A stretch of DNA of 64,000 nt, taken from assembly GCF_018613855.1 (NCBI RefSeq), contig NZ_JAGGPK010000036.1, forward strand, positions 1 through 64,000, given 5' to 3'. The translations under genes were made by a program, and so were the position numbers. The DNA comes from Arthrobacter sp. ISL-30. GTDB taxonomy: Bacteria > Actinomycetota > Actinomycetes > Actinomycetales > Micrococcaceae. Under the pieces are notes generated by a model. That model saw only the letters and a list, made by a program, of their open reading frames with translations. It searched no databases and was not told the origin of the DNA. This document shows positions 4,821 to 57,116 of the stretch, in pieces. Numbering within the stretch: the first letter of the stretch is position 1; each line of letters begins with the position of its first letter.

Positions 4821-5723
4821 GTGGATATCACCAGGACTCCTAAGCCAGAGACCCCCGAAGTCCCGGCTCCTTACGGAAGCGGCCCTTCCTCGAGTAGGCA
4901 CCGCGCGACGGATTCCGCTGGAAACCCGGCGGGGCGGATCCGAACGCATCACCTCCAGCAGGCAAAAGATGACGGCAAACGATTCGCCATGCTAACGGCC
5001 TATGATCAGTACACAGCCGAGATCTTCGATGAAGCAGGTATTGAAGTGCTCCTCGTCGGCGACTCGGCCTCCAATAATGTCTTCGGCAACGAGACAAGCC
5101 TGCCAGTCACAGTTGATGAGCTCCTTCCGCTCTGCCGAGCAGTCACCCGCTCCGCGAAGCGTGCACTCGTAGTAGCAGACCTGCCCTTCGGCAGCTACGA
5201 GGTCTCAGAGCAGCAGGCGGTGGCTACAGGCGTTCGGTTCCTTAAAGAAGGCCTAGCTCATGCAGTGAAAATTGAGGGAGGCCGCTTTTATGCGAATACG
5301 GTGAGGGCCATGGTCGAGGCAGGAATCCCTGTCATGGCACACATTGGCTTTACACCGCAAAGCGAACACGCGCTCGGTGGTTACCGCGTACAGGGCCGTG
5401 GCGACGGCGCCCAGGGGTTGATAGACGACGCAACCGCCCTCGCAGACGCCGGAGCCTTCTGCATACTCATGGAAATGGTTCCTGCCACAATTGCAGAGAC
5501 CATTGACGCGGCCATTCAGGTTCCCACCATAGGCATCGGCGCCGGGAACGCGACGACCGGACAGGTTCTGGTGTGGCAGGACATGGCCGGGCTCCGTGCG
5601 GGGAAGCTGGCGAAATTCGTCAAACAGTACGCCGATCTCCGATCCTCGCTTTTGAGTAGTGCTAAAGCATACGGGCAGGAAGTCCGTGCGGGCCAGTTCC
5701 CCGGCCCGGAACACTGCTTCTAG
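4821..5723 (+). CDS. panB: 3-methyl-2-oxobutanoate hydroxymethyltransferase (ketopantoate synthesis)
   Basis: PanB transfers a hydroxymethyl group from methylene-tetrahydrofolate to 2-oxoisovalerate, the first step to pantothenate. The 300-residue protein has an actinobacterial-type extension of about 50 residues, then the TIM barrel: [30 protein letters not shown] (metal-binding Asp), [25 protein letters not shown] and CILMEMVP, ending with [19 protein letters not shown]. The start is GTG at 4821 after AAGGTG. It sits 34 bases after the BisC-type gene and is probably cotranscribed with it, an unusual partner. No panC is in the window, and the only panD (55947-56306) is dead, so this copy relies on genes elsewhere. 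Confidence 0.95.
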
Positions 5724-6317: not shown

Positions 6318-7913
6318 TCACCTTGTCACGGTGATGGCTTCCAACGAAATTCCCGCCTCCGACGCAGCACGTTGTACGGCGAGGTCATCATGGGGGAGTT
6401 GAACGATTGTGCCATCAGGGGAGCGCGAAAATGCCGCGTAAGGGAGTGGCATCTGTTGCCGGTCGATTAGCGCGTTGGCGTCCTGAGTTTGCACGAGGTG
6501 CTGTGCCTCGTCTTTGGTTTCGACGTTGGGCAGGGATCCATTTAGTGGCCTCCTGCTCGTCTCCTTGAGGAAGAACACTGAAACGAGGCCCAGTACTGCG
6601 GCCCCTATCAGGTAGTAAGCAGGGACCATTACATTTCCGGTGACGCCGATGAGCGCAGCTACCACCAGCGGGGCTGTCCCACCAAAAGCTGCGTTGCCCA
6701 GGTTGTAGGCAAGGCCGAGCGCGCTGGCCCTTGATTCTGTTGGGAACTGTTCTGGGAGAGCAGATGCATAGCTCGACGAGAAGAGAGTCGCGCATACCAT
6801 GATGAACAAAGTCCCTAAGGCCGCGCCCCAAAGATTGCCCGAACCCATCATCATGAACGCCGGTATCGGGAGAAGGATGCCCAATGCTGCACCGATGAAG
6901 AGGATACGCTTCCTGCCGATCTTGTCCGAAAGCGATGCAAAAAATTGCGTCGCGAATGCGGCCAGTACGAACAGCGGGAAGATCACGAGGGTTCCTTGAG
7001 CACCCTGGAATCCGAGCGTCTGGTTCAAGTAGGTAGGCGTGAAGGACGTCATTGTGTATGCGATGACATTCCCGGCAGCCGCGATTCCCATGACCGGAAG
7101 AATGAAGCGACGCTGAGCCCGAATGACCTCAACCACACCCATGTTCTCACGGAGCTCCCCGGTTTTTTGGGCTTCCTCGGACCGTTCCTTCAATACCGCC
7201 GAGAAGGCGGGTGACTCCTCAATCCGGTAGCGGAAGTACAGGGCAATCGCAGCGAGCGGCCCGGCGATCAGGAATGGTATCCGCCAGCCGAAGGACTGCA
7301 TTGCGCCCTCGCCCAAAGTGACCTGCAGGACGGCGACAAGACCGGCCCCAAAAGCAAAGCCAAGATAGCTGGACCCCATGAATCCAACGTAGAAACCCCG
7401 CTTGCGGTCAGGGGCGTATTCACTTAAAAAGGTTGCGCCGCCCGTGTATTCCCCGCTGGCCGAGAAGCCCTGGAGCAGTTTCAGGAAAACGAGAAGAGCT
7501 GGAGCCCATAGTCCGATTTCGGCATACCCGGGAAGAAGACCAGTAGCGAATGTGGCTACCGACATCAGCAGCAGAGTGAAGGTGAGCACCTTTCGTCGCC
7601 CAATTCTGTCGCCCAGCCATCCGCAGAAAACCCCGCCGAGCGGACGGGCGATGAAGGTGACTGCGAAGGTTCCGTACAGATAGAGGGCTTGAACTGTAGG
7701 GTCCGCCTTGGGCAGAAAGACCGGGCCAATGACCGTTATCAGATAAGCGAATACCCCGAACTCATACCATTCAATGACGTTTCCGACAACGGTTCCTGCG
7801 ACGGCACGCCTCAGGGCATCCTTCCGGACGATGCGGACATCCTTCAAACGCAATCGGCGCTTGCCGAAGTAGATGCTTTGAGCATCGACAAACTTTGGCT
7901 CGCCAAAGGACAT
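6318..7913 (-). CDS. MFS transporter, metabolite:H+ symporter (MHS/ProP-ShiA) type
   Basis: A 531-residue membrane protein with twelve predicted helices, importing a small, probably anionic or zwitterionic metabolite with protons. Helix 1 holds VGNVIEWYEFGVFAYL, a hallmark of the MHS family; the MFS loop 2-3 motif is GWLGDRIGRRKVL; the helix 5 region has GFSASGEYTGGATFLSEYAP. A hydrophilic tail of about 70 residues follows the last helix. The start is taken at 7913, where ATG overlaps the stop of the upstream gene as TAATG and follows GGAAGGGG; a start at 7931 would be inside that ribosome site. It is the last gene of the operon 9945-6318. Confidence 0.9.
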   Translation of the reverse strand: MSFGEPKFVDAQSIYFGKRRLRLKDVRIVRKDALRRAVAGTVVGNVIEWYEFGVFAYLITVIGPVFLPKADPTVQALYLYGTFAVTFIARPLGGVFCGWLGDRIGRRKVLTFTLLLMSVATFATGLLPGYAEIGLWAPALLVFLKLLQGFSASGEYTGGATFLSEYAPDRKRGFYVGFMGSSYLGFAFGAGLVAVLQVTLGEGAMQSFGWRIPFLIAGPLAAIALYFRYRIEESPAFSAVLKERSEEAQKTGELRENMGVVEVIRAQRRFILPVMGIAAAGNVIAYTMTSFTPTYLNQTLGFQGAQGTLVIFPLFVLAAFATQFFASLSDKIGRKRILFIGAALGILLPIPAFMMMGSGNLWGAALGTLFIMVCATLFSSSYASALPEQFPTESRASALGLAYNLGNAAFGGTAPLVVAALIGVTGNVMVPAYYLIGAAVLGLVSVFFLKETSRRPLNGSLPNVETKDEAQHLVQTQDANALIDRQQMPLPYAAFSRSPDGTIVQLPHDDLAVQRAASEAGISLEAITVTR

Positions 7914-8158
7914 TAATTGCACCCCTTCCAACGCTCTGCTGCTGGCTTAGCAGGTTGTCGCAAGAGAGTGTAGCCATCGCCAACATGAAACAGGCGACGT
8001 TCCCCCACTGAAGATCGAAGCCAAATAATGTCCCGGTCATCAGTAAATTCTTCTACCGTACCGGCAAAGCGGTGAGTACCCTTTTCTAAGACCACATCCT
8101 GCCCGTGCTCCACCATGGTCCAGGAAAGGCCCCTAAATGAGGTTTCTGTCTGATCCAT
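7913..8158 (-). CDS. Small conserved-looking hypothetical protein (81 aa)
   Basis: I do not recognise this protein. It is short, mostly beta in character (HRFAGTVEEFTDDRDIIWLR ... LFHVGDGYTLLR), soluble, with no signal or membrane segment. The pattern of a short strand-rich barrel suggests an SH3-like or binding domain, but that is only an impression. It stands between the cupin gene (15 bases upstream) and the transporter gene, with which it shares a TAATG stop/start overlap, so it is almost surely translated with them and serves the same pathway. Confidence 0.65.
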   Translation of the reverse strand: MDQTETSFRGLSWTMVEHGQDVVLEKGTHRFAGTVEEFTDDRDIIWLRSSVGERRLFHVGDGYTLLRQPAKPAAERWKGCN

Positions 8159-14101: not shown

Positions 14102-14704
14102 TCAGTGTTGCGGGGCGTCTCCCGCCAGAAGTCCCAGCGCCACGTCCATGGCGGTCGAAATCCGGTCAGATACGTCTGAGATATTGCCCGTCCCGTCGAC
14201 CTTGGTTAAGATACCGCGTTCGCTGTACAGGGATGTGACAGCCGTGGTTTGCTCAAAGTAGAGAGCCATTCTGTGCCGTCTGACATCCACTGTATCGTCC
14301 GTGCGATTTTCAAGGGCAGCGCGTTTGAGGAGGCGTTGAACCAGTTCTTCAGTGTCGGCGACGAGCTGCACAACAACATCCAGTTCCTGGCCCTTCTCCC
14401 TTAGGATGCCGTCGAGAAAATCCACCTGGCCGGGAGTACGCGGGTATCCGTCCAGTAGGAATCCATCGGCTGCATCTCGCTGGGCCAAACGGTCACGAAC
14501 CATCGCATTGGTGACTGAGTCGGGTACGAATTTACCTGCGTTCAAATACGACTCCGCAGCTACCCCCAGCTCGGATTTGCTTTTGACATTTTGCCGGAAG
14601 ATGTCGCCCGTGGAAATGGTGACGATGCCGAGCCTCTCTCCGATGAAGCTGGCCTGAGTACCTTTGCCTACCCCGGGGGGACCTATGAGAAGCATTCTGA
14701 TCAA
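14102..14704 (-). CDS. adk: Adenylate kinase, accessory copy
   Basis: Converts AMP and ATP to two ADP. The 200-residue protein has the P-loop GPPGVGKGTQASF, the NMP-site LLDGYPRTPGQVDFLD, and a short LID (ENRTDDTVDVRRHRMALY) without zinc cysteines, the actinobacterial short form. The TTG at 14704 is taken as start: it overlaps the upstream stop as TTGA, follows AAAGGAC, and gives the usual M-x-R-M-L-x-I-G opening. Housekeeping adk normally sits in the ribosomal-protein operon, so this is probably a second copy. It lies in a catabolic operon with an AMP-forming ligase (17550-19091), whose AMP it could recycle. Confidence 0.9.
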   Translation of the reverse strand: MIRMLLIGPPGVGKGTQASFIGERLGIVTISTGDIFRQNVKSKSELGVAAESYLNAGKFVPDSVTNAMVRDRLAQRDAADGFLLDGYPRTPGQVDFLDGILREKGQELDVVVQLVADTEELVQRLLKRAALENRTDDTVDVRRHRMALYFEQTTAVTSLYSERGILTKVDGTGNISDVSDRISTAMDVALGLLAGDAPQH

Positions 14705-44582: not shown

Positions 44583-45350
44583 ATGAAAATCATCGTGCTG
44601 GTGAAGCAGGTGCCGGACACCGCAGAGGAACGCAGGCTTGATCCGGCCACCGGGCGCCTGGACCGTGACGCAACGGATCGTGTTGCCGACGAGATCAGCG
44701 AACGCGCCCTTGAGGTAGCGCTGCGCTGCAAGGACGCGGATAAGAAGACTGAGGTCGTGGTACTCACTATGGGCCCGGCGGATGCCGACCAGGCGCTGCG
44801 CAAGGCCCTGTCCATGGGTGCCGACTCGGCGCTCCATGTTCTAGATGACGGGCTGCAGGGCGCCGACATTGCACGGACAGCCGAGGTGCTGGCCGCTGCG
44901 GCTAAGCAGGCCGGCTTTGATCTGTTGGTGGCGGGCAACGAGTCCACAGACGGCCGGGGCGGTGTGGTGCCGGCGATGATTGCCGAACATCTGGCTTTGC
45001 CGTTGCTGCCCTCGCTGAACTCGATCGAATTCGACGAGGCGTCCGTCGGCGGTGAGGTCGGCGTCGAGAATGGGGCCCTGACGGTTCGTGCATCGCTGCC
45101 GGCGGTGATCTCCGTGACTGAACGGGTAGCCGAGGCCCGCTTCCCCAATTTCAAGGGCATTATGACCGCCAAGCGCAAGCCCTTGGCCACCATGTCCCTG
45201 AGCGATCTGGGACTGGACACAGCGCCTCCGCAATCAGCAGTGCTGACTACGTCCGAACGGCCGGCCCGCGCCGCCGGAAAGAAAATCTACGACGGCGGCG
45301 GCGCCGGCGTTGAGCTTGCCGAATTCCTGGCCGCCGGCCGCCTGATCTGA
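44583..45350 (+). CDS. etfB: Electron transfer flavoprotein beta subunit
   Basis: A 255-residue ETF beta chain. It opens [20 protein letters not shown] and holds the AMP-site region [20 protein letters not shown]; the recognition-loop region near [19 protein letters not shown] carries the positions used in docking to acyl-CoA dehydrogenases. With EtfA it accepts electrons from the acyl-CoA dehydrogenase at 47402. It is the first gene of the operon, with an AGGAGG ribosome site and two upstream operators. The organism surely has another etf pair, so this one is a pathway-specific copy (inferred). Confidence 0.95.
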
Positions 45351-45363
45351 GCGAGGAACCTCC

Positions 45364-46338
45364 ATGTCAAACGTACTGGCACTTATTGAAATATCGCACG
45401 CCGGAGATATCGCCGGCAGTGCACCGTCCGTCATTGCAGCCGCTGCAAAACTCGGCACCCCGATTGCCGTGGTCGCTGTAGAGCCGGGCCACACCGCCGG
45501 CATCTCCGAGCAGCTTGGCGAATTCGGCGCGCAGCACGTCTATGTCGCCGAAAGTACCCAGACCGGCATGGTGCTCGCCGCCCCCCAAGTCGCTGCGCTC
45601 GCCAGCGCCATCCAGGCGTTCTCCCCGATAGCGGTGATAGCCGCCAATTCAGTGGAGAGCAGGGATGTTGCGGCGCGGTTTGCCGTTCGCGTCGGAGCAG
45701 GCCTGCTGGCCGACGTCGTCGACGTCGCCTTCTCTGCCGACGGCACCCCGGTAGCCTTCCACTCCGTGTTCGGCGGGGCCTACATGGTGGAGGCGACCGT
45801 CTCCGCAGGACTGGCGGTCATCACGCTGCGCCAGGGCGCTCTGGATGACCGAGCTCCCGCAGCCACACCGAAGACCACGATCGTGACTGTCGACGCTGAG
45901 ACTGGCAACGCAGCCGTCATCGAACGGGTCCACCCGGCCATTGCCGACTCAGGACGCCCGCCGCTGAATGGCGCATCCACCATAGTCTCCGGAGGCCGCG
46001 GCCTGGGCTCGAAAGAGAACTTTGTGCTCGTCGAGCAACTGGCAGATGCGCTCGGTGCCGCTGTCGGTGCATCCCGCGCAGCTGTGGACGCGGGATACGT
46101 CCCCCAGGCCTCGCAGGTCGGGCAGACAGGAATCACCGTCTCCCCGCAGCTCTATGTAGCTTTGGGCATCTCCGGGGCGATCCAGCACCTGGCCGGCATG
46201 CAAACCGCCAAGACCATCGTTGCGATCAACAAAGACGAGTGCGCGCCGATCTTCGACGTCGCTGACTTTGGCGTCGTGGGCGACGTTTTCACCGTGGTGC
46301 CCCAGCTGATCGAAGCACTCAAAGCCCGCCATAACTAG
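45364..46338 (+). CDS. etfA: Electron transfer flavoprotein alpha subunit
   Basis: A 324-residue ETF alpha chain. The N-terminal domain ([20 protein letters not shown]) packs with EtfB. The C-terminal FAD domain has the family signature: [40 protein letters not shown], then [16 protein letters not shown] and [20 protein letters not shown]. The gap to etfB is 13 bases. It carries the FAD that shuttles electrons to a membrane acceptor; the next gene, a cytochrome b, is a candidate. Confidence 0.95.
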
Positions 46339-46393
46339 GACTTCACCCCCGGCCAATGCAGGCCGGCGGTGATCCACGGAAAGGAACAAGTAC

Positions 46394-47323
46394 ATGACCA
46401 CCACGACAAAGCCGGGCACGGCGCCCAGGAGCAGGGCCAAGGTGGTCACGGCCGTCGTTATCGCGGTGGTGACATTGCTGGCCGTAGTGCTCATTGCCAA
46501 ATGGACGCGGACCCTACCCGCGTTCCAATCCTTCCTGGCAGATTACCCAGGTCATGTGGACCTGCCCGCAGGCGCCCCGACAGGACTGCCGGGGTGGCTG
46601 GGTTGGCAGCACTTCCTCAACGCCTTCTTTCTTCTGCTGATCATACGTTCCGGCTGGCAGGTCAGGACCACCACCCGCCCGAAGGCGCATTGGACGCGGA
46701 ACAACAAGGGCCTGATCCGGACCAAGAACCCGCCGTCCAAGATCAGTTTGGACCTGTGGTTTCATCTGACCCTGGATGCACTCTGGGTGCTCAACGGCGT
46801 CGTCTTCGTGGCGCTGCTCCTGGCCACGGGGCAGTGGATCCGCATCGTGCCCGCCACTTGGGAGGTCTTTCCCAACGCCCTGTCCACCGCCGTCCAGTAC
46901 GCCTCGCTGAACTGGCCAATTGAGAACGGATGGGTCAACTACAACTCTCTGCAGGTGCTGGCCTACTTCACCACCGTCTTTATCGCAGCTCCGCTGGCCC
47001 TCGCTACAGGGCTGCGCATGTCAGGCGCCTGGCCCAGGAACGCTCCGAAGCTCAACAGGGCTTATCCGATCGAACTCGCCCGCGCCATCCACTTCCCGGT
47101 GATGCTTTACTTCGTCTTCTTCATCATCGTCCACGTGACCCTAGTCTTCGCCACAGGGGTATTGCGCAACCTCAACCACATGTACGCCTCAAGCGACGAC
47201 GGCAGCTGGGCAGGGTTCTGGATCTTCGCCGCTTCACTGGCGGTCATGATCGCCGCCTGGTTCCTGGCGCGCCCTCTGTTTCTGCGCCCTATTGCCTCGC
47301 TGACAGGCAAGGTTTCACGCTAG
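46394..47323 (+). CDS. b-type cytochrome (cytochrome b561/b6-like) of the etf operon
   Basis: A 309-residue membrane protein with about six helices (roughly residues 17-37, 70-88, 121-146, 187-208, 233-256, 274-292). Candidate haem-ligand histidines are H73 (WLGWQHFLNAFF), H124 (DLWFHLTLDALW), H233 (ARAIHFPVML) and H247 (FIIVHVTLVF), fit for two haems b across the membrane. The layout is that of the di-haem cytochromes that link dehydrogenases to quinone. It lies 55 bases after etfA and 78 before the acyl-CoA dehydrogenase; no ETF:quinone oxidoreductase is present. A role as membrane acceptor for EtfAB is inferred, with no precedent visible in the sequence itself. Confidence 0.8.
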   Translation: MTTTTKPGTAPRSRAKVVTAVVIAVVTLLAVVLIAKWTRTLPAFQSFLADYPGHVDLPAGAPTGLPGWLGWQHFLNAFFLLLIIRSGWQVRTTTRPKAHWTRNNKGLIRTKNPPSKISLDLWFHLTLDALWVLNGVVFVALLLATGQWIRIVPATWEVFPNALSTAVQYASLNWPIENGWVNYNSLQVLAYFTTVFIAAPLALATGLRMSGAWPRNAPKLNRAYPIELARAIHFPVMLYFVFFIIVHVTLVFATGVLRNLNHMYASSDDGSWAGFWIFAASLAVMIAAWFLARPLFLRPIASLTGKVSR

Positions 47324-47401
47324 CGGCAGGGCCTCCTGCCGGCATTGGAAGTGCCCTCGGGCGCGGCTACACAACCAACCACGAGCTCGGAAGGGCGAAA
47401 G

Positions 47402-48538
47402 ATGTTTGAACTAAACGAGGACCAGCAAGCAATGGTCCAGATGGTGCGGGACTTCGCGAGCGAAGCCCTGGCACCCAACGCGGCCAAGTGGGACGAAACC
47501 AAGCACTTCCCAGTGGACGTGCTTCAGGAGGCCGGCGCCCTGGGCATGGGCGGCATCTATGTCCAGGAGAAGTTCGGCGGCTCCGGACTCACGCGCAGCG
47601 ACGCGGTACTGATCTTCGAGGAACTGGCCAAGGGCGACACAACGATTGCCGCCTACATCTCTATCCACAACATGGTGGTGTGGATGATCGATACCTTCGG
47701 CAACGATCAGCAGCGCGCCCAGTGGGTGCCGCAGCTGGCCTCAATGGAGGCACTGGGCAGCTACTGCCTCACTGAGCCGGGCGCCGGCTCGGACGCCGCG
47801 GCACTCAGCACAAAGGCAGTCCGCGACGGCGACGAATACGTGCTCAACGGGGTCAAACAGTTCATTTCCGGCGCCGGAGCTTCCAGCTTTTACATCGTCA
47901 TGGCCCGCACCGCCGACACCGGGAGCAGGGGCATCACGGCAATCGTGGTTCCCGCCGATACCCCCGGGCTGTCCTTCGGGGCCAACGAGAAGAAGATGGG
48001 CTGGAACGCGCAGCCCACCCGCCAAGTCATCTTCGAGGACGTCCGCGTCCCCGTCGCTAACAGGCTGGGCGAGGAAGGCAGCGGCTTCGGGATTGCAATG
48101 AGGGGCCTCAACGGCGGTCGTATCAACATGGGTGCGTGCTCCCTTGGCGGCGGCCAGGTTGCCCTGGACAAGTCCGTTGCCTACCTCAAGCAACGTTCGG
48201 CATTCGGCGGGCCGCTGATCAACCAGCAGGCCCTGCTCTTCCAATTGGCCGACATGGAAACGGAACTTGAGAGCGCCCGGACCCTGCTCCGGCGTGCCGC
48301 CGATGCGCTGGACAGGGGAGCGGACGACGCCGTCAAACTCTGCGCGATGGCCAAGCGGGTTGCCACGGACGCCGGGTTCAACGTAGCCAACGCCGCTATC
48401 CAGCTCCACGGCGGCTACGGATACCTCAGCGAATACGGACTCGAAAGGATCGTGCGGGACCTGCGGGTCCATCAGATCCTGGAAGGCAGCAACGAGATCA
48501 TGCGTCTCATTGTCGGCCGGATGCTGGCGGAGGCGTAG
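47402..48538 (+). CDS. Acyl-CoA dehydrogenase, isobutyryl-CoA dehydrogenase type
   Basis: A 378-residue flavoprotein that makes an alpha,beta double bond in a short branched acyl-CoA. Motifs: SYCLTEPGAGSDAAAL, the second family signature QLHGGYGYLSEYGLERIVRD, and the catalytic Glu in the QILEGSNEIMRLI end. The next genes encode the exact downstream enzymes for isobutyryl-CoA, which makes that the likely substrate; 2-methylbutyryl-CoA is possible too. The ATG at 47402 follows GGAAGGGCGAAAG. Electrons go to EtfAB. The stop is three bases before the next start. Confidence 0.92.
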   Translation: MFELNEDQQAMVQMVRDFASEALAPNAAKWDETKHFPVDVLQEAGALGMGGIYVQEKFGGSGLTRSDAVLIFEELAKGDTTIAAYISIHNMVVWMIDTFGNDQQRAQWVPQLASMEALGSYCLTEPGAGSDAAALSTKAVRDGDEYVLNGVKQFISGAGASSFYIVMARTADTGSRGITAIVVPADTPGLSFGANEKKMGWNAQPTRQVIFEDVRVPVANRLGEEGSGFGIAMRGLNGGRINMGACSLGGGQVALDKSVAYLKQRSAFGGPLINQQALLFQLADMETELESARTLLRRAADALDRGADDAVKLCAMAKRVATDAGFNVANAAIQLHGGYGYLSEYGLERIVRDLRVHQILEGSNEIMRLIVGRMLAEA

Positions 48539-48541
48539 CCC

Positions 48542-49624
48542 GTGGAAAGCGAAGCATTGCAGAACAACGAGATCCTGCTCCGGCGCGACGGCCGTCTGGG
48601 CCACATCATCCTAAACCGGCCCCAGGCAATGAACGCGTTGACCCAGGGCATGGTGAAGACCATCGCCGCCACGCTTACAGAGTGGGAGAACGACGACGGC
48701 GTGTCGACGGTTCTGCTGTCAGGTGCCGGAGAGCGGGGGCTCTGCGCTGGCGGAGACATAGTGGCCATCTACCGTGACGCTCTGGACGGCGGGCAGGAGA
48801 CTGCCCGCTTCTGGATGGACGAGTACTGGCTCAATGCCCACATCGCGCGGTATTCGAAGCCCTATGTGGCGGTGATGGACGGGGTAGTGCTCGGCGGCGG
48901 AGTCGGCGTTTCCGCCCATGCGTCGGTGCGCATCGTTACGGAGCGGACGAAGGTCGGCATGCCGGAGACCGCCATCGGTTTCGTCCCCGACGTAGGGGGC
49001 ACCTACCTGCTCTCCCGTGCTCCGGGCGAGCTGGGCACCCATGTGGCGCTGACCGCGTCGACTATCTCCGGGCCTGACGCCATCGCCTTGGGGCTGGCGG
49101 ACTTCTTCGTGGACAGTGACACGTTGCCCGCGCTGGCAAGGGCCCTTGGCAGTATGGATGCCCGCGAAGCGGTCCAGGCGTTCGCGCCGGATTACTTCCC
49201 CCCGTCGGCGCTGGTTTCGGAGCGCGGGTGGATCGACGAATGCTACGCGTTCGACGACGTTGAGGCGATTGTCGATGCCCTGCAGCGGTCCTCTGCGCCG
49301 GCCGCCCGCGATGCGGCAGACCGCATCCTCGCCAAATCACCGACGGCACTGAAAGTGACATTGGAGTCGCTCCGCCGGGCACGGCAGATGCCCCTCCTGG
49401 AAGAGGCACTGGACCAGGAATACCGTGTTTCCCTTCGTTGCCTGGCCGGCGGCGATTTTCCCGAAGGTATTCGCGCGCAGGTCATCGACAAGGACCGCAA
49501 CCCACGCTGGTCGCCGCCGTCGCTGGCTGAAGTCTCGACCGAGGCGGTGGAAGCGTACTTTGCGGACCTTGGTGCCGCAGAACTCGGGCTGGGCGCGGAA
49601 GCCATCCACCATCTCAACAAATAG
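48542..49624 (+). CDS. 3-hydroxyisobutyryl-CoA hydrolase (crotonase fold)
   Basis: A 360-residue crotonase-fold hydrolase; the length and C-terminal extension (EYRVSLRCLAGGDFPEGIRA then VIDKDRNPRWSPPSL) are those of HIBYL-CoA hydrolases, not of 260-residue hydratases. The oxyanion and active-site segments are GLCAGGDIVAIYRDAL, VVLGGGVGVSAHASVRIVTE and MPETAIGFVPDVGGTYLLSR, with the Glu and Asp of the hydrolase site. It frees 3-hydroxyisobutyrate from its CoA ester, which allows the next enzyme to act. The GTG start lies three bases after the dehydrogenase stop. Confidence 0.92.
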   Translation: MESEALQNNEILLRRDGRLGHIILNRPQAMNALTQGMVKTIAATLTEWENDDGVSTVLLSGAGERGLCAGGDIVAIYRDALDGGQETARFWMDEYWLNAHIARYSKPYVAVMDGVVLGGGVGVSAHASVRIVTERTKVGMPETAIGFVPDVGGTYLLSRAPGELGTHVALTASTISGPDAIALGLADFFVDSDTLPALARALGSMDAREAVQAFAPDYFPPSALVSERGWIDECYAFDDVEAIVDALQRSSAPAARDAADRILAKSPTALKVTLESLRRARQMPLLEEALDQEYRVSLRCLAGGDFPEGIRAQVIDKDRNPRWSPPSLAEVSTEAVEAYFADLGAAELGLGAEAIHHLNK

Positions 49625-49676
49625 ACGAATCCTCAGGACACAGGTCGTCAGGGCAAAAAGGTAGGAGAAGAGTTTC

Positions 49677-50588
49677 ATGACCAAACGGATAGCCTTCATC
49701 GGACTGGGCCACATGGGTGGGCCCATGGCCGTGAACCTTGCCAAGGAAGGTTACATGGTTGAGGGTTTTGACCTTGCGCCCGCAGCTCTGGAGTATGCCC
49801 GGGACAATGGCGTTACCTTGGCTGCTTCGGCGGCTGAGGCCGCCAAGGACGCCAACGTCGTCATCACCATGTTGCCTGCGGGCAGGCACGTCCTCGCGGC
49901 TTATCAGGGCGAGGATGGACTCCTCGCGGCGGCCAAGCCAAACACCCTGTTCCTGGACTGTTCCACGATTTCCGTCGAGGATTCGCGGACCGCCCATGAA
50001 CTTGTCCAAACGGCGGGGCATCGCTGTCTGGACGCGCCGGTCTCCGGCGGTGTGGTCGGGGCTGAAGGCGGGACGCTGACCTTCATGGTCGGTGGCGATG
50101 AGGCAGACTTCGTCGAGGCAAAACCCGTCCTGGAAGCAATGGGCAAGCGCATAGTCCACTGCGGCGGCCCGGGCGCCGGGCAGGCTGCCAAGGTCTGCAA
50201 CAACATGATCCTGGGCGTCTCCATGATCGCGGTCAGCGAGGCCTTTGTGCTGGGTGAACGGCTGGGTCTGTCCAATCAGGCACTCTTTGACGTCGCCGCC
50301 AACGCGTCGGGCCAGTGCTGGGCGTTGACCACCAACTGTCCCGTGCCCGGACCGGTGCCCGCCAGCCCGGCCAACCGCGACTACCGGCCCGGCTTCGCCG
50401 GAGCTCTCATGGCCAAGGACCTGGGCCTGGCAGCCCACGCCATGGAAGCCACGGGAGTCGATGCCCGCCTGGGCAGTCTGGCCGAAGAAATCTACCGCCG
50501 CTTCGCCCAAGGAGACGGCGCGGAGCAGGATTTCTCCGCAATCATCAACGAGATTCGGGCGAACTCCAAGACAAAGGAAATGGCATGA
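49677..50588 (+). CDS. mmsB: 3-hydroxyisobutyrate dehydrogenase
   Basis: A 303-residue beta-hydroxyacid dehydrogenase that oxidises 3-hydroxyisobutyrate to methylmalonate semialdehyde with NAD. It has [20 protein letters not shown] (cofactor loop and substrate signature), [20 protein letters not shown] (substrate-binding), and the catalytic lysine in [14 protein letters not shown]. The family end [20 protein letters not shown] is intact. Its stop overlaps the next start as ATGA. Length and motifs match MmsB. Confidence 0.95.
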
Positions 50589-51361
50589 GCGATTACCAAA
50601 ACATCGTTATCAAGCAGCAGGGCCGCGTGGGCATCATCACCCTTAACCGTCCGGAAGCCCTGAACGCGCTCAACGATGCGCTTGGCTATGAGGTCCTGGC
50701 CGCAGCACTTGAATTCGACCAGGATCCGGGTGTCGGAGCCATTGTCATTACCGGCTCGGAACGCGCCTTCGCCGCCGGCGCGGACATCAAGGAAATGGCC
50801 ACGAAGTCCTACATGGACATGTACCTGGAGGACTGGTTTGCGGCCTGGGATCAGCTTGCCAGGGTCCGCACCCCGATGATCGCCGCGGTGGCAGGATACG
50901 CCTTGGGCGGCGGCTGCGAGCTCGCCATGATCTGCGACTTCATCATCGCCGCCGATAACGCCAAGTTCGGCCAGCCCGAAATCAAGCTCGGAGTCATTCC
51001 CGGCATGGGCGGCTCCCAACGCCTTACCCGCGCGATCGGCAAAGCCAAGGCGATGGAGATGGTTCTCACCGGTCGGACCATGGGGGCCGAGGAGGCCGAA
51101 CGCGCTGGCCTCGTGGCCAGGATAGTTCCAGTAGCAACGCTAATGGACGAGGCCCTTGCCACCGCCGAAACGATCGCTGCCATGTCCAAGCCCGTGGCCC
51201 TGCTCGCGAAGGAAGCCGTCAACTCCGTTTACGAGACATCTCTGGCCGAGGGAGTCCGCCTTGAGCGCAGGCTCAACCATTCATGCTTTGCCATCGAGGA
51301 CCAAAAGGAGGGGATGCAGGCCTTTATCGAAAAGCGTTCCCCCCGTTTCAGTCACCGGTGA
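50585..51361 (+). CDS. Enoyl-CoA hydratase (probable methacrylyl-CoA hydratase)
   Basis: A 258-residue crotonase with both catalytic glutamates: [20 protein letters not shown] and [17 protein letters not shown]. The oxyanion loop is [13 protein letters not shown]. It would hydrate methacrylyl-CoA to 3-hydroxyisobutyryl-CoA between the dehydrogenase and the hydrolase. The ATG at 50585 overlaps the mmsB stop as ATGA; longer frames upstream are shadows of mmsB. It is the standard hydratase of the operon, in contrast to the altered crotonase at 54190. Confidence 0.93.
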
Positions 51362-51425
51362 ACTCCACCCGTTAGCCAGTTGGGCCTCCATGAGGCACAG
51401 AAGAATTCTTGAAATGCGAGGAAGC

Positions 51426-52925
51426 ATGACTGAAGTAAGCGTTGACCCACGGTTCGGATCCATCCTGAATGGTACAGATCAACTGATGTGGATCGACGGC
51501 GAGCGGACGGAGGCGGCCACGGGGGAGTGGCGCGAGGTCAAGAACCCCGCGCGCCGGGACACCGTGATTGCCCGGGTGCCGTCTGCCGGTACCCAGGACG
51601 TGGAGCGCGCCGTCGCCGCATCGCGCAAGGCCTTTCCGGGATGGCGCTCACTGCACTTCACGGAGCGTGCCCGTGCGTTGTCCCGGATCGCCGACGATAT
51701 CGAGGCCAGGGCCGAGGACTTCGCCCGGCTGACCGCACTGGACACCGGCAACGCGCTACGCACCCAGGCCCGCCCGGAGGTGGCGACCCTGGTGGCCCTC
51801 TTCCGCTACTTTGCCGGCATTGCCGGCGAGGTCAAGGGCGCCACGCTGCCAGCCGGAGACAACCAGCTGCAGTACACCCGGCTGGAACCCCTCGGCGTGG
51901 TCGCCTGTATCCTGCCCTGGAATTCGCCGCTGATGATCGCCGGCTTCAAGGTACCCGCCGCGCTGGCTGCGGGCAACACGGTGATCCTGAAGGCGGCCGA
52001 CGACGCTCCGCTGACCATCCTGCTGCTGGCGGAAATCTGCAACCGGCATCTGCCCGCCGGCGTCGTCAACGCTCTGACCGGGCGCGGCAGTGTCATCGGT
52101 TCGGCGCTGTCACGGCACCCGGGAGTGGACAAGGTTTCATTCACCGGCTCCACTGACGTGGGGCGCGGTGTCGCACGCGAGGCCGGAGAACGGCTGGCCC
52201 ACGTGTCGCTGGAGCTCGGCGGCAAGAACCCCTCAATCGTCTTCCCTGACGCGGTCGATGACGAACTGATAGACGGTCTGCTCGCGGCCTCACGATTCAC
52301 CCGCCAAGGTCAAAGCTGCACAGCGGGCTCGCGGCTGTTCCTGCACGAGGACGTCTATGAGGAGGTACTCGATCGGCTGGTGGCCAAGCTTGGTGCCCTG
52401 AAGGTCGGGGATCCTCTGGACGAGGCCACCGACATGGGCGCCATCATCAACAACAGTCAGTTCACGCAGATCAGCCAGTACCTGGAGGAAGGGCGGGCCA
52501 GCAAAGACCTGGAAATTGCGCTGGGCGGCAATGTGCCATCCGAGGGCCCGCTGACGGAGGGCTACTATCACCTGCCCGCCGTGTTCGGCGGCGTGAAGAA
52601 CGAATTCCGGCTGGCCCAGGAGGAAATCTTCGGCCCGGTCCTGGTCGCCATCCGCTGGAAGGACGTTGACGATGTCGTCCGCATGGCCAATGACACCCAC
52701 TTCGGTCTTGCCGCCTACGTGTGGAGCCACAGTCTGGACAACGCCCTCAATACTGCCCATCGTGTGGAAGCGGGCTGGGTACAGATCAACCAAGGTGGCG
52801 GCCAGGTAGTGGGGCAGTCCTATGGCGGCTACAAGCAGAGCGGCATCGGCCGCGAGGTGTCCCTCGAGGGCATGCTGGCGGGCTTCACGCAGACCAAGCA
52901 AATCAACGTCAAGCTGCGGGGCTGA
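51426..52925 (+). CDS. NAD(P)-dependent aldehyde dehydrogenase, hydrolytic type
   Basis: A 499-residue ALDH that oxidises an aldehyde to the free acid. The general-base Glu is in VSLELGGKNPSIVFPD and the nucleophile Cys in RQGQSCTAGSRLFL; CILPWNSPLM and FTGSTDVGRGVA are the cofactor-site segments. Methylmalonate-semialdehyde dehydrogenase (MmsA) would be expected here, but CoA-acylating MmsA enzymes lack this Glu and have a different Cys context, so this protein most likely yields an acid and not an acyl-CoA. Substrate: methylmalonate semialdehyde or isobutyraldehyde (inferred). It lies 64 bases after the hydratase and 3 before the CoA-transferase. Confidence 0.9.
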   Translation: MTEVSVDPRFGSILNGTDQLMWIDGERTEAATGEWREVKNPARRDTVIARVPSAGTQDVERAVAASRKAFPGWRSLHFTERARALSRIADDIEARAEDFARLTALDTGNALRTQARPEVATLVALFRYFAGIAGEVKGATLPAGDNQLQYTRLEPLGVVACILPWNSPLMIAGFKVPAALAAGNTVILKAADDAPLTILLLAEICNRHLPAGVVNALTGRGSVIGSALSRHPGVDKVSFTGSTDVGRGVAREAGERLAHVSLELGGKNPSIVFPDAVDDELIDGLLAASRFTRQGQSCTAGSRLFLHEDVYEEVLDRLVAKLGALKVGDPLDEATDMGAIINNSQFTQISQYLEEGRASKDLEIALGGNVPSEGPLTEGYYHLPAVFGGVKNEFRLAQEEIFGPVLVAIRWKDVDDVVRMANDTHFGLAAYVWSHSLDNALNTAHRVEAGWVQINQGGGQVVGQSYGGYKQSGIGREVSLEGMLAGFTQTKQINVKLRG

Positions 52926-52928
52926 GCC

Positions 52929-54164
52929 ATGGCTGAATCAACAGCGACAGCCGCACCACTGGCCGGGATCACGGTCCTGGATCTCAGCCGCGCGCTTGCC
53001 GGTCCCTTTGCCACGGCACTCCTGGCGGACATGGGTGCGGCGGTTATCAAGGTTGAGAGCATCAAGGGCGGCGACTCAACCAGGTCCTGGCCGCCATTCG
53101 AGAATGAACACAGCCTCTATTTCGACTCCACCAACCGGGGAAAATCATCCTTGGCCCTGGACTTTTACAGTCCCGAGGGACAGAGACTGCTACGTCAGCT
53201 GGCGCTGGAAGCCGACGTCCTCGTGGAGAATTTCCGACCGGGCGTCCTAGGCGACATCGGGCTGGATCCGGCCGGGCTGCGCGCCGAAAAGCCGGACCTG
53301 ATAATCGCCTCCGTGAGCGGCTTCGGCACCACAGGTCCGCTCAGCCAGGCGGCCGGGTTGGACCAAGTGGCCCAAGGCATGTCGGGCCTCATGTCCATCA
53401 CTGGTCCGGACTCGGAGAATCTGTATCGCGTTGGGGTGCCGCTCATCGATATGTATGCCGGAGTGTTCATCGCGTTCGGCATCGCTTCAGCCCTGGCCGG
53501 CAGGGAACGCAACGGGGCAGGGATGGAAGTTTCGACGTCGCTCTTGGAGTCCGCGCTGGCCATCTCGTCCTTCCAGGGGCAGCGCTATCTCAGCACCGGC
53601 GAAGTGCCAGTGCCGCAGGGTAACAATCACCCGGTGCTCTCGCCATACGGCGTTTTCAAGACCGCTGACATTCCGATCATCATCGCCGTCGGCAACGACA
53701 AGCAATGGCGCCAGCTGTGCGAGCTGGTGGGTGATCCGGGCCTGGTCGATGAACGGGAGTATGTCACCGGCCGCGACCGCACGATACATCGGGACGCCCT
53801 GACGGCACGCCTCGAAGGGCTGCTCGCAGTGCGCCCTGGAACCGAATGGGTGCAGATGTTCCGGGCCGCGGGGATCCCCACCGGGCCAATCTACAATTAC
53901 CGCGAAGTCTTCCATGACCCACAAGTCCAGGCCCTGGACATGGTCCGGCACGTCTCTCGGCACGACGGCTCACCCCTGCCGCTGTTGCGGGGCCCGCTAT
54001 CCATCAACGGCGAAGGTACGCCCATCCGCAAAGCGCCGCCAGCCTTAGGTGGGGACACCCGACGAGTGCTGGAGGGGCTGCGGCTCAGCGAGGAGCAGAT
54101 CACCGGACTCCTTGAGGCCGGTGTGGTGAGGGAAGCTCTTGTTCCGCAGGACGTGCCGCTATGA
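52929..54164 (+). CDS. Family III CoA-transferase (CaiB/BaiF type)
   Basis: A 411-residue class III CoA-transferase that moves CoA between two carboxylic acids. It opens PLAGITVLDLSRALAGPFAT and has ADMGAAVIKVES. The nucleophilic Asp is in VGVPLIDMYAGVFIAFG. NRGKSSLALDF and the C-terminal RAAGIPTGPIYNYREVFHDP are family marks. The ATG is three bases after the aldehyde dehydrogenase stop. It could load CoA on the acid made by that enzyme (methylmalonate, or isobutyrate). The CoA donor is unknown. Confidence 0.92.
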   Translation: MAESTATAAPLAGITVLDLSRALAGPFATALLADMGAAVIKVESIKGGDSTRSWPPFENEHSLYFDSTNRGKSSLALDFYSPEGQRLLRQLALEADVLVENFRPGVLGDIGLDPAGLRAEKPDLIIASVSGFGTTGPLSQAAGLDQVAQGMSGLMSITGPDSENLYRVGVPLIDMYAGVFIAFGIASALAGRERNGAGMEVSTSLLESALAISSFQGQRYLSTGEVPVPQGNNHPVLSPYGVFKTADIPIIIAVGNDKQWRQLCELVGDPGLVDEREYVTGRDRTIHRDALTARLEGLLAVRPGTEWVQMFRAAGIPTGPIYNYREVFHDPQVQALDMVRHVSRHDGSPLPLLRGPLSINGEGTPIRKAPPALGGDTRRVLEGLRLSEEQITGLLEAGVVREALVPQDVPL

Positions 54165-54189
54165 AAACCGAACCGCAAGGGAGGAAACT

Positions 54190-54996
54190 GTGACCGGAAC
54201 CCTCCGGGTCGAATACAACGGTCCGGTGGCCACCATCGTGCTGGACAATGAGCGCCGGCGCAATGCGATGACCAAGGACATGTGGCAACAGTTCCAACCC
54301 CTGCTCGATCTTCTGGCGGTCGACGAAACCGTTAAGGTGGTAGTGGTGCGTGGAGCGGCGGAGAACTTTTCCGCGGGAGCAGACATCAGCGACCTCAAAG
54401 ACATCCTGCATGATCCCGGCACCGGCCGGCACGACGGCGGCCACGTCACCGCCGGAGAAAACGCGCTGGCCAGTTTCCACAAGCCCACCATTGCCGCCAT
54501 CGACGGCTACTGCATCGGCGGCGGCTGGCAGATTGCAGGTGCCTGCGACATCCGGATCGCCTCCGACCGGTCAACATTCGGCATCACACCCTCAAAGGTC
54601 GGCATAATCTACCCGCTGTCGGGCATTGAACGGCTGGTCAGGCTGGCCGGGCCAGCGACGGCGAAATACCTGCTCTTCAGCGGAGACTTTATCCCGGCTG
54701 CGGAAGCGATGGCCCTGGGCTTGCTGGCACGGGTGGTACCCCAGGGCGGTTTCTGGGCGGAAATCACGGAATTCGCCGAGCGTCTGGCCTCCCGTTCGCA
54801 GCTGTCCATCCAGGCGATGAAGGATATCGTGGACATCATCGCCAAGGGCGGCGATGACCCGGGGGAGACCAGCGCTGCATGGCAACGTGAAATGGCCCTC
54901 AGCGGTGAGCCCGAGATAGGGATCCAGGCTTTCCTCGCAAAGCAGACTCCCGAATTCAAATGGGCGGGACGTGATTCCCGGCTCTTCGAGCTCTAG
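54190..54996 (+). CDS. Crotonase-fold protein lacking the hydratase glutamates, decarboxylase-like
   Basis: A 268-residue crotonase with the oxyanion loop NFSAGADISDLKDI. At the two hydratase Glu positions it has Gln (CIGGGWQIAGACD) and Ser (STFGITPSKVGIIYPLSG). The second stretch looks like methylmalonyl-CoA decarboxylase, where MTPxxLGVPYxLxG stands at the same place and a Tyr is near the active site; here the Tyr is kept (GIIYPLSG). So it is probably not a hydratase and may decarboxylate methylmalonyl-CoA to propionyl-CoA. Start is GTG at 54190 after GGGAGGAAA. It is the last gene of the operon, with a hairpin behind it. Confidence 0.82.
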   Translation: MTGTLRVEYNGPVATIVLDNERRRNAMTKDMWQQFQPLLDLLAVDETVKVVVVRGAAENFSAGADISDLKDILHDPGTGRHDGGHVTAGENALASFHKPTIAAIDGYCIGGGWQIAGACDIRIASDRSTFGITPSKVGIIYPLSGIERLVRLAGPATAKYLLFSGDFIPAAEAMALGLLARVVPQGGFWAEITEFAERLASRSQLSIQAMKDIVDIIAKGGDDPGETSAAWQREMALSGEPEIGIQAFLAKQTPEFKWAGRDSRLFEL

Positions 54997-55021: not shown

Positions 55022-55057
55022 TGCCCGCCTTGCCGTCACTCGTCGTCCAGGCGGGCA
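55022..55057 (+). terminator. Terminator of the etf operon
   Basis: TGCCCGCC (55022-55029) pairs exactly with GGCGGGCA (55050-55057) over 20 bases and is followed by TTTT, 26 bases past the last stop of the operon. It overlaps the 3' end of the convergent MarR gene. Confidence 0.6.
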
Positions 55058-55569
55058 TTTTCATCGAAGTCGCCCGCCTGGCGCCGGAAGCGACCAAGGG
55101 TTTCGATCAGACCCTCAACCTCGTCACTGGTAAATCCGGTTCGGGTGAATACCTGCGCGTTCAGATCCTTGGTGGCTGCCAGGACAACGTCCCGGCCCTG
55201 AGGGGAAATCTGCACCAAGGTGGCCCTGCCGTCCGTCGGGTGGGCAACCCTGCGCACCAGCCCAGCACGTGCCAGTCGGTCCACCGCACTTGTCACGCTC
55301 GTGGGGTGGACCTGCAGCCGTGCACTGGCCTTGGCCATGGGCAGCGACCCGCTCCTGGTGAAACTGAGCAGCGCCAGCAGTTCATAGCGGGCGAACGACA
55401 ACCCATGGGGTTTGAGCACGCCTTCGATACGGCCGAGCAGAATCTGCTGGGCACGCATGAGCGCGGTGACCGCGGCCATGCCTTCGGCGGCATCACCCCA
55501 TCCGTGCTCCTGCCAATGACGCTGGGCCTCGGCTATCGGGTCCTTGGACAGGGGAAGCAAGCCCGGCAC
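55036..55569 (-). CDS. MarR-family transcriptional regulator, likely repressor of the etf operon
   Basis: A 177-residue winged-helix protein. The recognition part reads SFARYELLALLSFTRSG then ARLQVHPTSVTSAVDRLARA and the wing GLVRRVAHPTDGRATLVQIS, with the Asp-x-Arg of MarR wings. The GTG at 55569 has an ideal GAAGGAG site; the frame runs to 55668 but would then contain the operator at 55638-55657. It faces the ten-gene operon tail to tail. The same palindrome in its own leader and in the etfB leader suggests autoregulation and control of the operon. The ligand is probably an acyl-CoA or acid of the pathway (inferred). Confidence 0.88.
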   Translation of the reverse strand: MPGLLPLSKDPIAEAQRHWQEHGWGDAAEGMAAVTALMRAQQILLGRIEGVLKPHGLSFARYELLALLSFTRSGSLPMAKASARLQVHPTSVTSAVDRLARAGLVRRVAHPTDGRATLVQISPQGRDVVLAATKDLNAQVFTRTGFTSDEVEGLIETLGRFRRQAGDFDENARLDDE

Positions 55570-55946
55570 GCCATCTCCTTCGATCGAAAATACCTGAGCA
55601 ATATGCTCCTTTTGACTAATTCTCTCATTTCGAAGCGTGTTACTAGGAAATGCTAGTATTGCGGCCAAGTTCGGGGTAACGGAGCGTTCGAGGGCGACGA
55701 GGAACCGCTTTATGTCGAGACAAGGACAGCCACTATCTCATCCAGCACACGGTCTTCTCGAATCACTCAACGGATCTGAGCAGTCGCACCTGACGTAAGG
55801 AATATCCTGCAACTCCGGACAGGATGGCGTTTTCTCCTAAAGTAAAGCGCAGGCGGGGTACCAGCCCTCACAGTCCGTTCCGGAGTGCTGTCTTGTTCAG
55901 CGCGAACGGGGGCCGCAGTAGTCCCGGTGTGAGGCCCTGGGCGGGG
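55570..55946. other. Leader of the marR gene and 3' side of dead panD
   Basis: Holds the third operator (55638-55657). Open frames on the plus strand (55824-56096) run antisense to panD and were not called. Nothing else was seen. Confidence 0.5.
55638..55657 (-). promoter_or_regulatory. MarR-type operator ahead of the marR gene
   Basis: TTACTAGG (55638-55645) and GCTAGTAT (55650-55657) around a 4-base spacer match the two etf sites (TACTAGG-N4-CCTAGTA) with one changed base per arm. It lies about 70 bases upstream of the marR GTG. Confidence 0.75.
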
Positions 55947-56306
55947 TCATTGCCCCAATACTATGAGCCGGTTGTGTTGGTCAACATGAACCACACGCGG
56001 TTCGTAGACCCTCGCTTCTTCGGAGGTCATCTGAGCGCACGGAATCAGGATGACAATGTCGTTTTCATGTACCACGTGCGCAGCCGGCCCAATTGATGCC
56101 GATGACGCCCGAGGCCCGTTCGCCGGCGATGGTGTAGGTCTCCAGACGGGCGCCGTTAGTTACGTCCACGATGGCGACGAGCTCCCCCGGAAGGACGTCG
56201 GCAGCATCGAGCAGGTCCAGGTTGACGGTGACCAAACCTACATAATGCAGGTCAGCCTGAGTGACGGTGCCCGGTGGATTTTGGATTTGAATATTGTTCG
56301 ATCCAC
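55947..56306 (-). pseudogene. panD: Aspartate 1-decarboxylase, dead copy
   Basis: Read in one frame from the GTG at 56306 (GGAG site upstream) the start is [13 protein letters not shown], as in PanD. A one-base loss near 56268 moves the frame to [20 protein letters not shown], then [20 protein letters not shown] and SGVIGIN. A one-base gain near 56091 restores the first frame: [37 protein letters not shown]. The serine that is cut to form the pyruvoyl cofactor (HYVGS in the family) is Leu (HYVGL, codon TTG). Two frameshifts plus loss of this residue mean no activity. Beta-alanine for pantothenate must come from elsewhere. Confidence 0.85.
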
Positions 56307-56637: not shown

Positions 56638-56754
56638 ATGCTGCTTACCACCGGGACTAATGACCCAATCGTGATCTTTCTGGCGGTCGAGAACCTCCCG
56701 CGGGTTCACCGGCCGGTGGATGCGGAGACGTTCGAACGGGGCCTGCAGTCGTGA
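56638..56754 (+). CDS. Small open frame coupled to the MmcQ gene
   Basis: A 38-codon frame starting at ATG with GGGAAGG five bases upstream. Its stop overlaps the GTG of the MmcQ gene as GTGA, which suggests translational coupling. The product ([20 protein letters not shown] in part) is not recognised. The same frame upstream, past a TAA, has [20 protein letters not shown], so it may be the tail of a broken gene. Confidence 0.35.
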
Positions 56755-57116
56755 CATTGAGCGGCGAGGAAGTGCAGCGGATTGCTCGGCAGGTTGCCGA
56801 GGGTTTGCCGGAGACCAGTAGCGGCTATCCGTTTACCCCTCACCTGCAGGTGTGGAAGGTAGCGGGTAAGGTCTTCTTGATCGTGACCGAGGACGATCCG
56901 GATCAGCAGATTGTTACCGTCAAAATAGGCCTGGACCACGGCGACGCACTACAGCGAGACCACGCCTCGATCAGCCGAGGTCACTACCTCAATAAGGAGC
57001 ATTGGGTATCTATCGCGGCCGGCCCCGGGATCACCCGCACAATCGTGGAAGACCTCGTCCACGGCTCGTATGAACTCGTCACCGCGGCACTCTCTGGGAA
57101 AGATCGGCCAGAGTAA
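56751..57116 (+). CDS. MmcQ/YjbR family protein, second copy
   Basis: A 121-residue MmcQ/YjbR-family protein. The start is GTG at 56751, overlapping the previous stop (GTGA). Family marks are [20 protein letters not shown], then [36 protein letters not shown] and a last helix [17 protein letters not shown]. It is a clear but distant relative of the protein at 1868-2245: both keep LPET, xVxKVAGKVF and N-K-x-HW. Its role is unknown; the neighbours (dead panD, ABC operon) give no hint. Confidence 0.85.

Follow-up and report, generated by a model that had tools for sequence, protein, structure and literature searches.

The enzyme family to which the locus described here is most closely related is PanD, the pyruvoyl-dependent aspartate 1-decarboxylase (PF02261, TIGR00223; solved relative 2c45), whose cleavage serine is Ser25 in E. 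coli numbering according to an excerpt of PMC3975893. The window, which is the whole stretch of 64,000 nucleotides of Arthrobacter sp. ISL-30 that was analysed, contains a panD remnant of about 440 bases. The remnant shares with PanD the sequence of its segments, their order and a C-terminal tail typical of the genus, but differs from it in having three frame changes, a premature stop codon and a leucine for the pyruvoyl-forming serine. It is very probably the pseudogene of an accessory panD, lying within a region of CoA-dependent catabolism.

Two described panD genes, one on plasmid pTC2 (CP000476.1) and one on plasmid pDCT5, have 78–79% DNA identity to the remnant over some 410 bases and likewise lie outside the canonical place of the gene. 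These are annotated genes on plasmids typed as conjugative or mobilizable, whereas the remnant is broken and is found on a draft contig (C30). In Rhizobium etli and R. leguminosarum panCB is plasmid-encoded and essential, as an extract of PMC3082293 has it. As far as that extract goes, the likeness lies in pantothenate genes being located off their usual chromosomal place, and the difference in the plasmid panCB being essential whereas the remnant is extra, dead and a panD instead of a panCB. PanB has a part in the nicotine catabolism of Pseudomonas putida, in the portion of PMC3891541 that treats it.

Structure and decay of the remnant

The remnant is divided into four segments, which are listed below together with the method by which each was delimited.

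55868..56306, minus strand: panD pseudogene (three-frame tblastn and codon-level reading; PF02261 on two segments)
56268..56306, minus strand: segment 1, N-terminal, in the frame of 56306, up to the first frame change (tblastn, codon-level reading)
56086..56268, minus strand: segment 2, the core with HYVGL, in another frame, up to the second frame change near 56091 (PF02261, tblastn, codon-level reading)
55950..56090, minus strand: segment 3, in the first frame again, running into a premature TGA at 55947-55949 (PF02261, tblastn, codon-level reading)
55868..55954, minus strand: segment 4, the C-terminal tail, in the third frame (tblastn, 55954-55883)

An initial annotation had followed PanD over 55947-56306, with a base missing near 56268 and an extra base near 56091. 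These two changes were recovered by tblastn and codon-level reading, which place the similarity on the minus strand, beginning at a GTG at 56306. The GTG is the likely start, the corresponding codon in the strain's own intact panD being ATG. Relative to that intact gene the remnant lacks one base at about 56268 and has one extra base at about 56091 and another at about 55954. The two frameshifts first reported are hence real, but overall the changes do not offset, there being three of them (lost, gained, gained), and the outer parts share a frame only as regards segments 1 and 3, the C-terminal tail being in the third frame. Nor does the gene end at 55947 as was thought, since the TGA there is premature and the tail runs on to a stop at about 55868; this genus-typical tail is matched over 24 amino acids with 83% identity (tblastn, E 1.7e-8). 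PF02261 matches two segments separately, with 72.6 bits (56083-56268) and 32.5 bits (55965-56090), both over the cut-off of 25 bits, so that by this measure the similarity to PanD is far above chance. Compared with a functional PanD, the remnant thus has the family match and has neither an uninterrupted reading frame nor the cleavage serine.

The motif HYVGL stands in the remnant at the position of HYVGS in intact PanD. It is here that the alpha chain begins in solved relatives, the alignments of 6oyy_B and 1vc3_B opening with residue 2 of each at query residue 26, which marks the position as the site of the cleavage serine; from the alignment, it is this serine, the one that becomes the pyruvoyl cofactor, that leucine replaces. 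The leucine noted initially was confirmed, with serine found in the 220 other stretches scored, a number that includes repeat fetches of one gene and rows outside the genus. Leucine was found in five, all of which are the place of the remnant under several locus identifiers. Among 52 near-invariant positions, defined as those unchanged in 98% or more of 160 distinct full-length rows, five are substituted in the remnant (S25L, D29N, G65A, G73W and Y90C) and a sixth is lost at a break. G73W sits at a frame change and is possibly an effect of alignment, which leaves four firm substitutions, Ser25 included. No departures at these positions occur in 192 of 212 full-length rows, and the most are found in L216 (24), L044 (7) and L212 (6), all of them accessory.

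The median pN/pS against intact genes is 0.202 for the remnant, 0.097–0.182 for 63 canonical genes and 0.110–0.281 for 32 others, which places it slightly above the canonical range and inside that of the other copies, and pN/pS alone does not separate it from working copies. Its third-position G+C is 0.676, the medians being 0.838 for canonical genes and 0.725 for the others. Both measures fit a gene on which selection acted for the greater part of its existence and whose loss is fairly recent. A pseudogene would not be proven by substitution rates taken alone; the proof lies in the frame changes together with the missing serine. Given three frame changes and a leucine for the pyruvoyl-forming serine, no active PanD is to be expected. 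The gene had been described as killed in three ways, which is right as to its being dead and incomplete as a list, as a third frame change and substitutions at other near-invariant positions have to be added. Programmed frameshifting was considered and is ruled out by the three breaks together with the lost cleavage serine.

Other pantothenate genes of the genome

The window belongs to contig C30 (64,930 bases) of a draft genome of 4.36 Mb in 68 contigs (completeness 96.14, contamination 0.33). An intact panD with its serine present is located at C44:16201-16542, scoring 171.1 bits with PF02261 and 178.4 bits with TIGR00223 against a cut-off of 106. This gene holds the canonical, genus-typical place and is followed, as are most other canonical panD genes, by a transporter-like gene that is presumably AEC-like. 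Its presence in the genome explains why the remnant copy was dispensable. There is one match to panC in the genome, without stops, and there are three panB loci, of which the copies on C33 and in the window are open and the copy on C54 has three internal stop codons.

The dead remnant had led to the view that the strain has lost PanD, so that beta-alanine must come from another gene or from a salvage route. That the strain obtains beta-alanine in such a way is scarcely credible: the search for a second panD which the initial annotation proposed found the intact canonical copy, with its serine and in the genus-typical place of the same genome, and panC and panB are present as well. With an intact panD, one panC and two open panB genes the conclusion about beta-alanine is unsupported, and a false lead is removed, the strain not being PanD-less.

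The panB of the window had been called intact, and it is indeed open over its full length, although it is one of three.

4821..5723, plus strand: extra panB, open over its full length (PF02548, 341.9 bits; TIGR00222, 277.2 bits against a cut-off of 207.55)

The protein encoded is 80–82% identical to the accessory PanB of L219, L201 and L042 and 78% identical to that of the strain's own C33 copy. Because it is an extra copy, closer to accessory panB than to C33, it probably says little about the pathway, and a functional tie to the remnant would be only conjectural. The ketopantoate reductase C-terminal family PF08546 has no match in the strain's genome, and that step may use another enzyme.

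Several further genes were observed in this connection. An MFS transporter gene (6321-7922) adjoins the panB of the window and is 83–84% identical to one near the accessory panD-panB in L214 and L198. An extra adenylate kinase gene of the window (14105-14695) is 59–64% identical to those adjoining accessory panD. The broken panB (G000:C54:7380-8084, L055) shares its contig with the strain's own prpD-prpB-prpC cluster, which has no panD match, an arrangement that fits gain and loss without proving it.

Surroundings and origin of the remnant

The remnant lies beyond a catabolic gene cluster and a regulator gene.

44583..54996, plus strand: cluster of etfBA, acyl-CoA dehydrogenase, 3-hydroxyisobutyryl-CoA hydrolase, 3-hydroxyisobutyrate dehydrogenase, enoyl-CoA hydratases, aldehyde dehydrogenase and CoA-transferase III (Pfam, NCBIfam)
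55036..55668, minus strand: MarR-family regulator, downstream of the remnant (Pfam MarR; homologous, with 69.5% by blastp, to the regulator that adjoins the intact L203 panD)

The 3-hydroxyisobutyryl-CoA hydrolase scores 446.7 bits against a cut-off of 274 and the 3-hydroxyisobutyrate dehydrogenase 398 against 291.6, and from its gene content the cluster looks like one for isobutyryl-CoA (valine-type) breakdown. Isobutyryl-CoA breakdown can lead to propionyl-CoA. The aldehyde dehydrogenase of the cluster scores 234, short of the methylmalonate-semialdehyde dehydrogenase cut-off of 448.5, and the formation of propionyl-CoA by the cluster therefore remains putative. On the other side of the remnant, a YjbR-family open reading frame (56751-57116) follows a stretch with a forward frame from 56530 that is broken by a stop codon, and the spacer there may contain another decayed gene.

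The locus L203, from another species, has homologues of seven of the cluster genes with 69–89% protein identity. Its intact panD is situated 16 bases past the last enoyl-CoA hydratase, inside the operon and on the same strand, whereas in the window the regulator separates the remnant from the cluster and the remnant is on the opposite strand, so the two arrangements are related without being identical. The homologues in the window are about full length when compared with L203, the first gene of which is cut by the end of the locus. Full-length neighbours of this kind would argue against a poor local assembly, and they bear on the reading in which the remnant is an otherwise intact second panD spoilt by sequencing or assembly error. 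That reading is highly improbable. The assembly is a draft in 68 contigs and the frame changes are located within or adjoining short runs of G or C, as error would have it, but error alone would hardly account for the change from serine to leucine, three further firm near-invariant substitutions, 73–75% DNA identity to the strain's own gene and the full-length neighbours. The leucine codon by itself, which was first held to exclude a sequencing error, does not do so; error becomes very unlikely once this further evidence is joined to it.

The remnant has up to 82% DNA identity to panD of other species of the genus and 73–75% to the intact gene of its own genome. A decayed recent duplicate of the strain's own panD would be of the same gene family and in the same genome, as is the remnant. 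It is nonetheless a most improbable origin in view of these identities, and a topology test rejected the remnant and the strain's own intact gene as one clade (p 0.0117).

It is less simple to decide between an accessory lineage and a replaced ancestral panD, that is, an older or horizontally acquired gene of canonical type from another species of the genus. By raw identity the rows closest to the remnant are canonical panD genes of other species (82%, L176), a likeness that would speak against an accessory origin, and placement of the remnant among canonical genes was not rejected (p 0.137). Against a replaced ancestral gene are the best tree, in which the remnant groups with the accessory copies L200 and L205 (moderate support, 93/79), the absence at the remnant of the AEC-like gene that trails canonical panD, and catabolic surroundings like those of other accessory copies; replacement is on balance unlikely, if less so than a recent duplicate. 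The 98 rows of this tree exclude fragments, most named-genome loci, three loci belonging to other families and repeats of one place. Its accessory and canonical labels require 5 changes, compared with 26.0 in shuffles, the labels being slightly circular in that they come from neighbour genes, with L028, L186, L187 and L191 set as canonical by hand. A single accessory clade was not rejected either (p 0.252). In an earlier quick tree the remnant joined L212 (0.64) within a group of 13 rows that are accessory by context except for the canonical L068.

Two traits of an accessory copy are seen in the remnant, a non-canonical place and a canonical panD elsewhere in the genome. L200, one of the two rows nearest to it in the 98-row tree, is the panD annotated on pTC2 of Paenarthrobacter aurescens TC1, a plasmid typed as conjugative, and a similar panD is found on pDCT5 of Arthrobacter dokdonellae, typed as mobilizable. 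No prpC, panB or adenylate kinase gene adjoins the remnant, the panB at 4821 and the adenylate kinase at 14105 lying 40–50 kb off. A query of 1,261 bases, consisting of the remnant and one flank, was compared with 198 genomes of the genus, the strain's own included; among the matches listed no flank was shared, all of them falling within query positions 5-496 except for the window itself. A 4.6 kb query against plasmid records gave matches in 63, none covering 80% of the query. Membership of the remnant in the accessory and partly plasmid-borne panD lineages of the genus is supported without being proven, as is its not having arisen by recent duplication of the strain's resident panD.

Accessory panD in the genus

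With PF02261, further panD loci were detected in 8 of 36 relatives from the same genus. A DNA search that scored at most two candidates per genome gave two panD matches in 36 of 198 genomes of the genus, the strain's own included. Five of these 36 (G005, G110, G111, G128 and G212) have one PF02261 match only, and so at least 31 of the 198 carry an extra panD. The accessory set comprises 37 of the 38 extra loci, a fragment in G209 being left out, and its members are not all independent, as L050 and L222 are near-identical. Twenty-seven of the 37 are open, nine are broken and one is cut by a contig end; the scripted count was 26 open and full-length, 10 broken or partial and one cut, and L202 was moved to the open class because it has an alignment gap of one residue only.

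The neighbours of these copies recur. At 13 of the 37 loci a same-strand prpC match is found upstream, within 2 kb; a prpC gene is called in 11 of the 13, L214 and L221 having the match only, and in L219 an adenylate kinase gene lies between. The next gene downstream is panB at 10 loci (only partial, with 55% identity, in L223), and adenylate kinase is found within 1.2 kb at five. At least one of the three accompanies 21 of the 37, and no prpB, prpC, prpD, panB or adenylate kinase gene was found within 7 kb of any of 16 canonical loci. Copies with prpC as a neighbour fall into two separate accessory groups of the tree. With NCBIfam the prpB and prpC representatives are over their cut-offs, and the prpD representative matches PrpD best, at 869.1 against a cut-off of 950. 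The titles and abstract openings of the best-matching literature hold no description of a panD-prpC linkage, which is not claimed here to be unpublished.

The loss of a spare panD is ordinary, and the recurrent link of extra panD and panB to propionyl-CoA pathways is mildly interesting. An accessory panD, often with panB, would raise the supply of beta-alanine, pantothenate and CoA, serving pathways in which CoA becomes tied up in the form of propionyl-CoA or acyl-CoA. Such a gene would be gained and lost repeatedly and would decay once the demand or its partners change. A broader proposal, offered tentatively and with rather more doubt than confidence, is that a mobile CoA-supply set (panD, often panB and sometimes adenylate kinase) moves together with operons for the formation or consumption of propionyl-CoA, such as those of the methylcitrate cycle and isobutyryl-CoA breakdown, that it relieves the sequestration of CoA and that it is acquired and shed time and again, with the discarding stage represented by the window. 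If the linkage to propionyl-CoA is true, cofactor supply would be inherited along with catabolic pathways.

Dead and live extra copies of panD coexist with the canonical gene in the genus, and hence predictions of vitamin auxotrophy based on gene counts or on a single window can go wrong. As to gene order, there are examples (L207, L214 and L219) in which an accessory panD comes after prpDBC and before panB.
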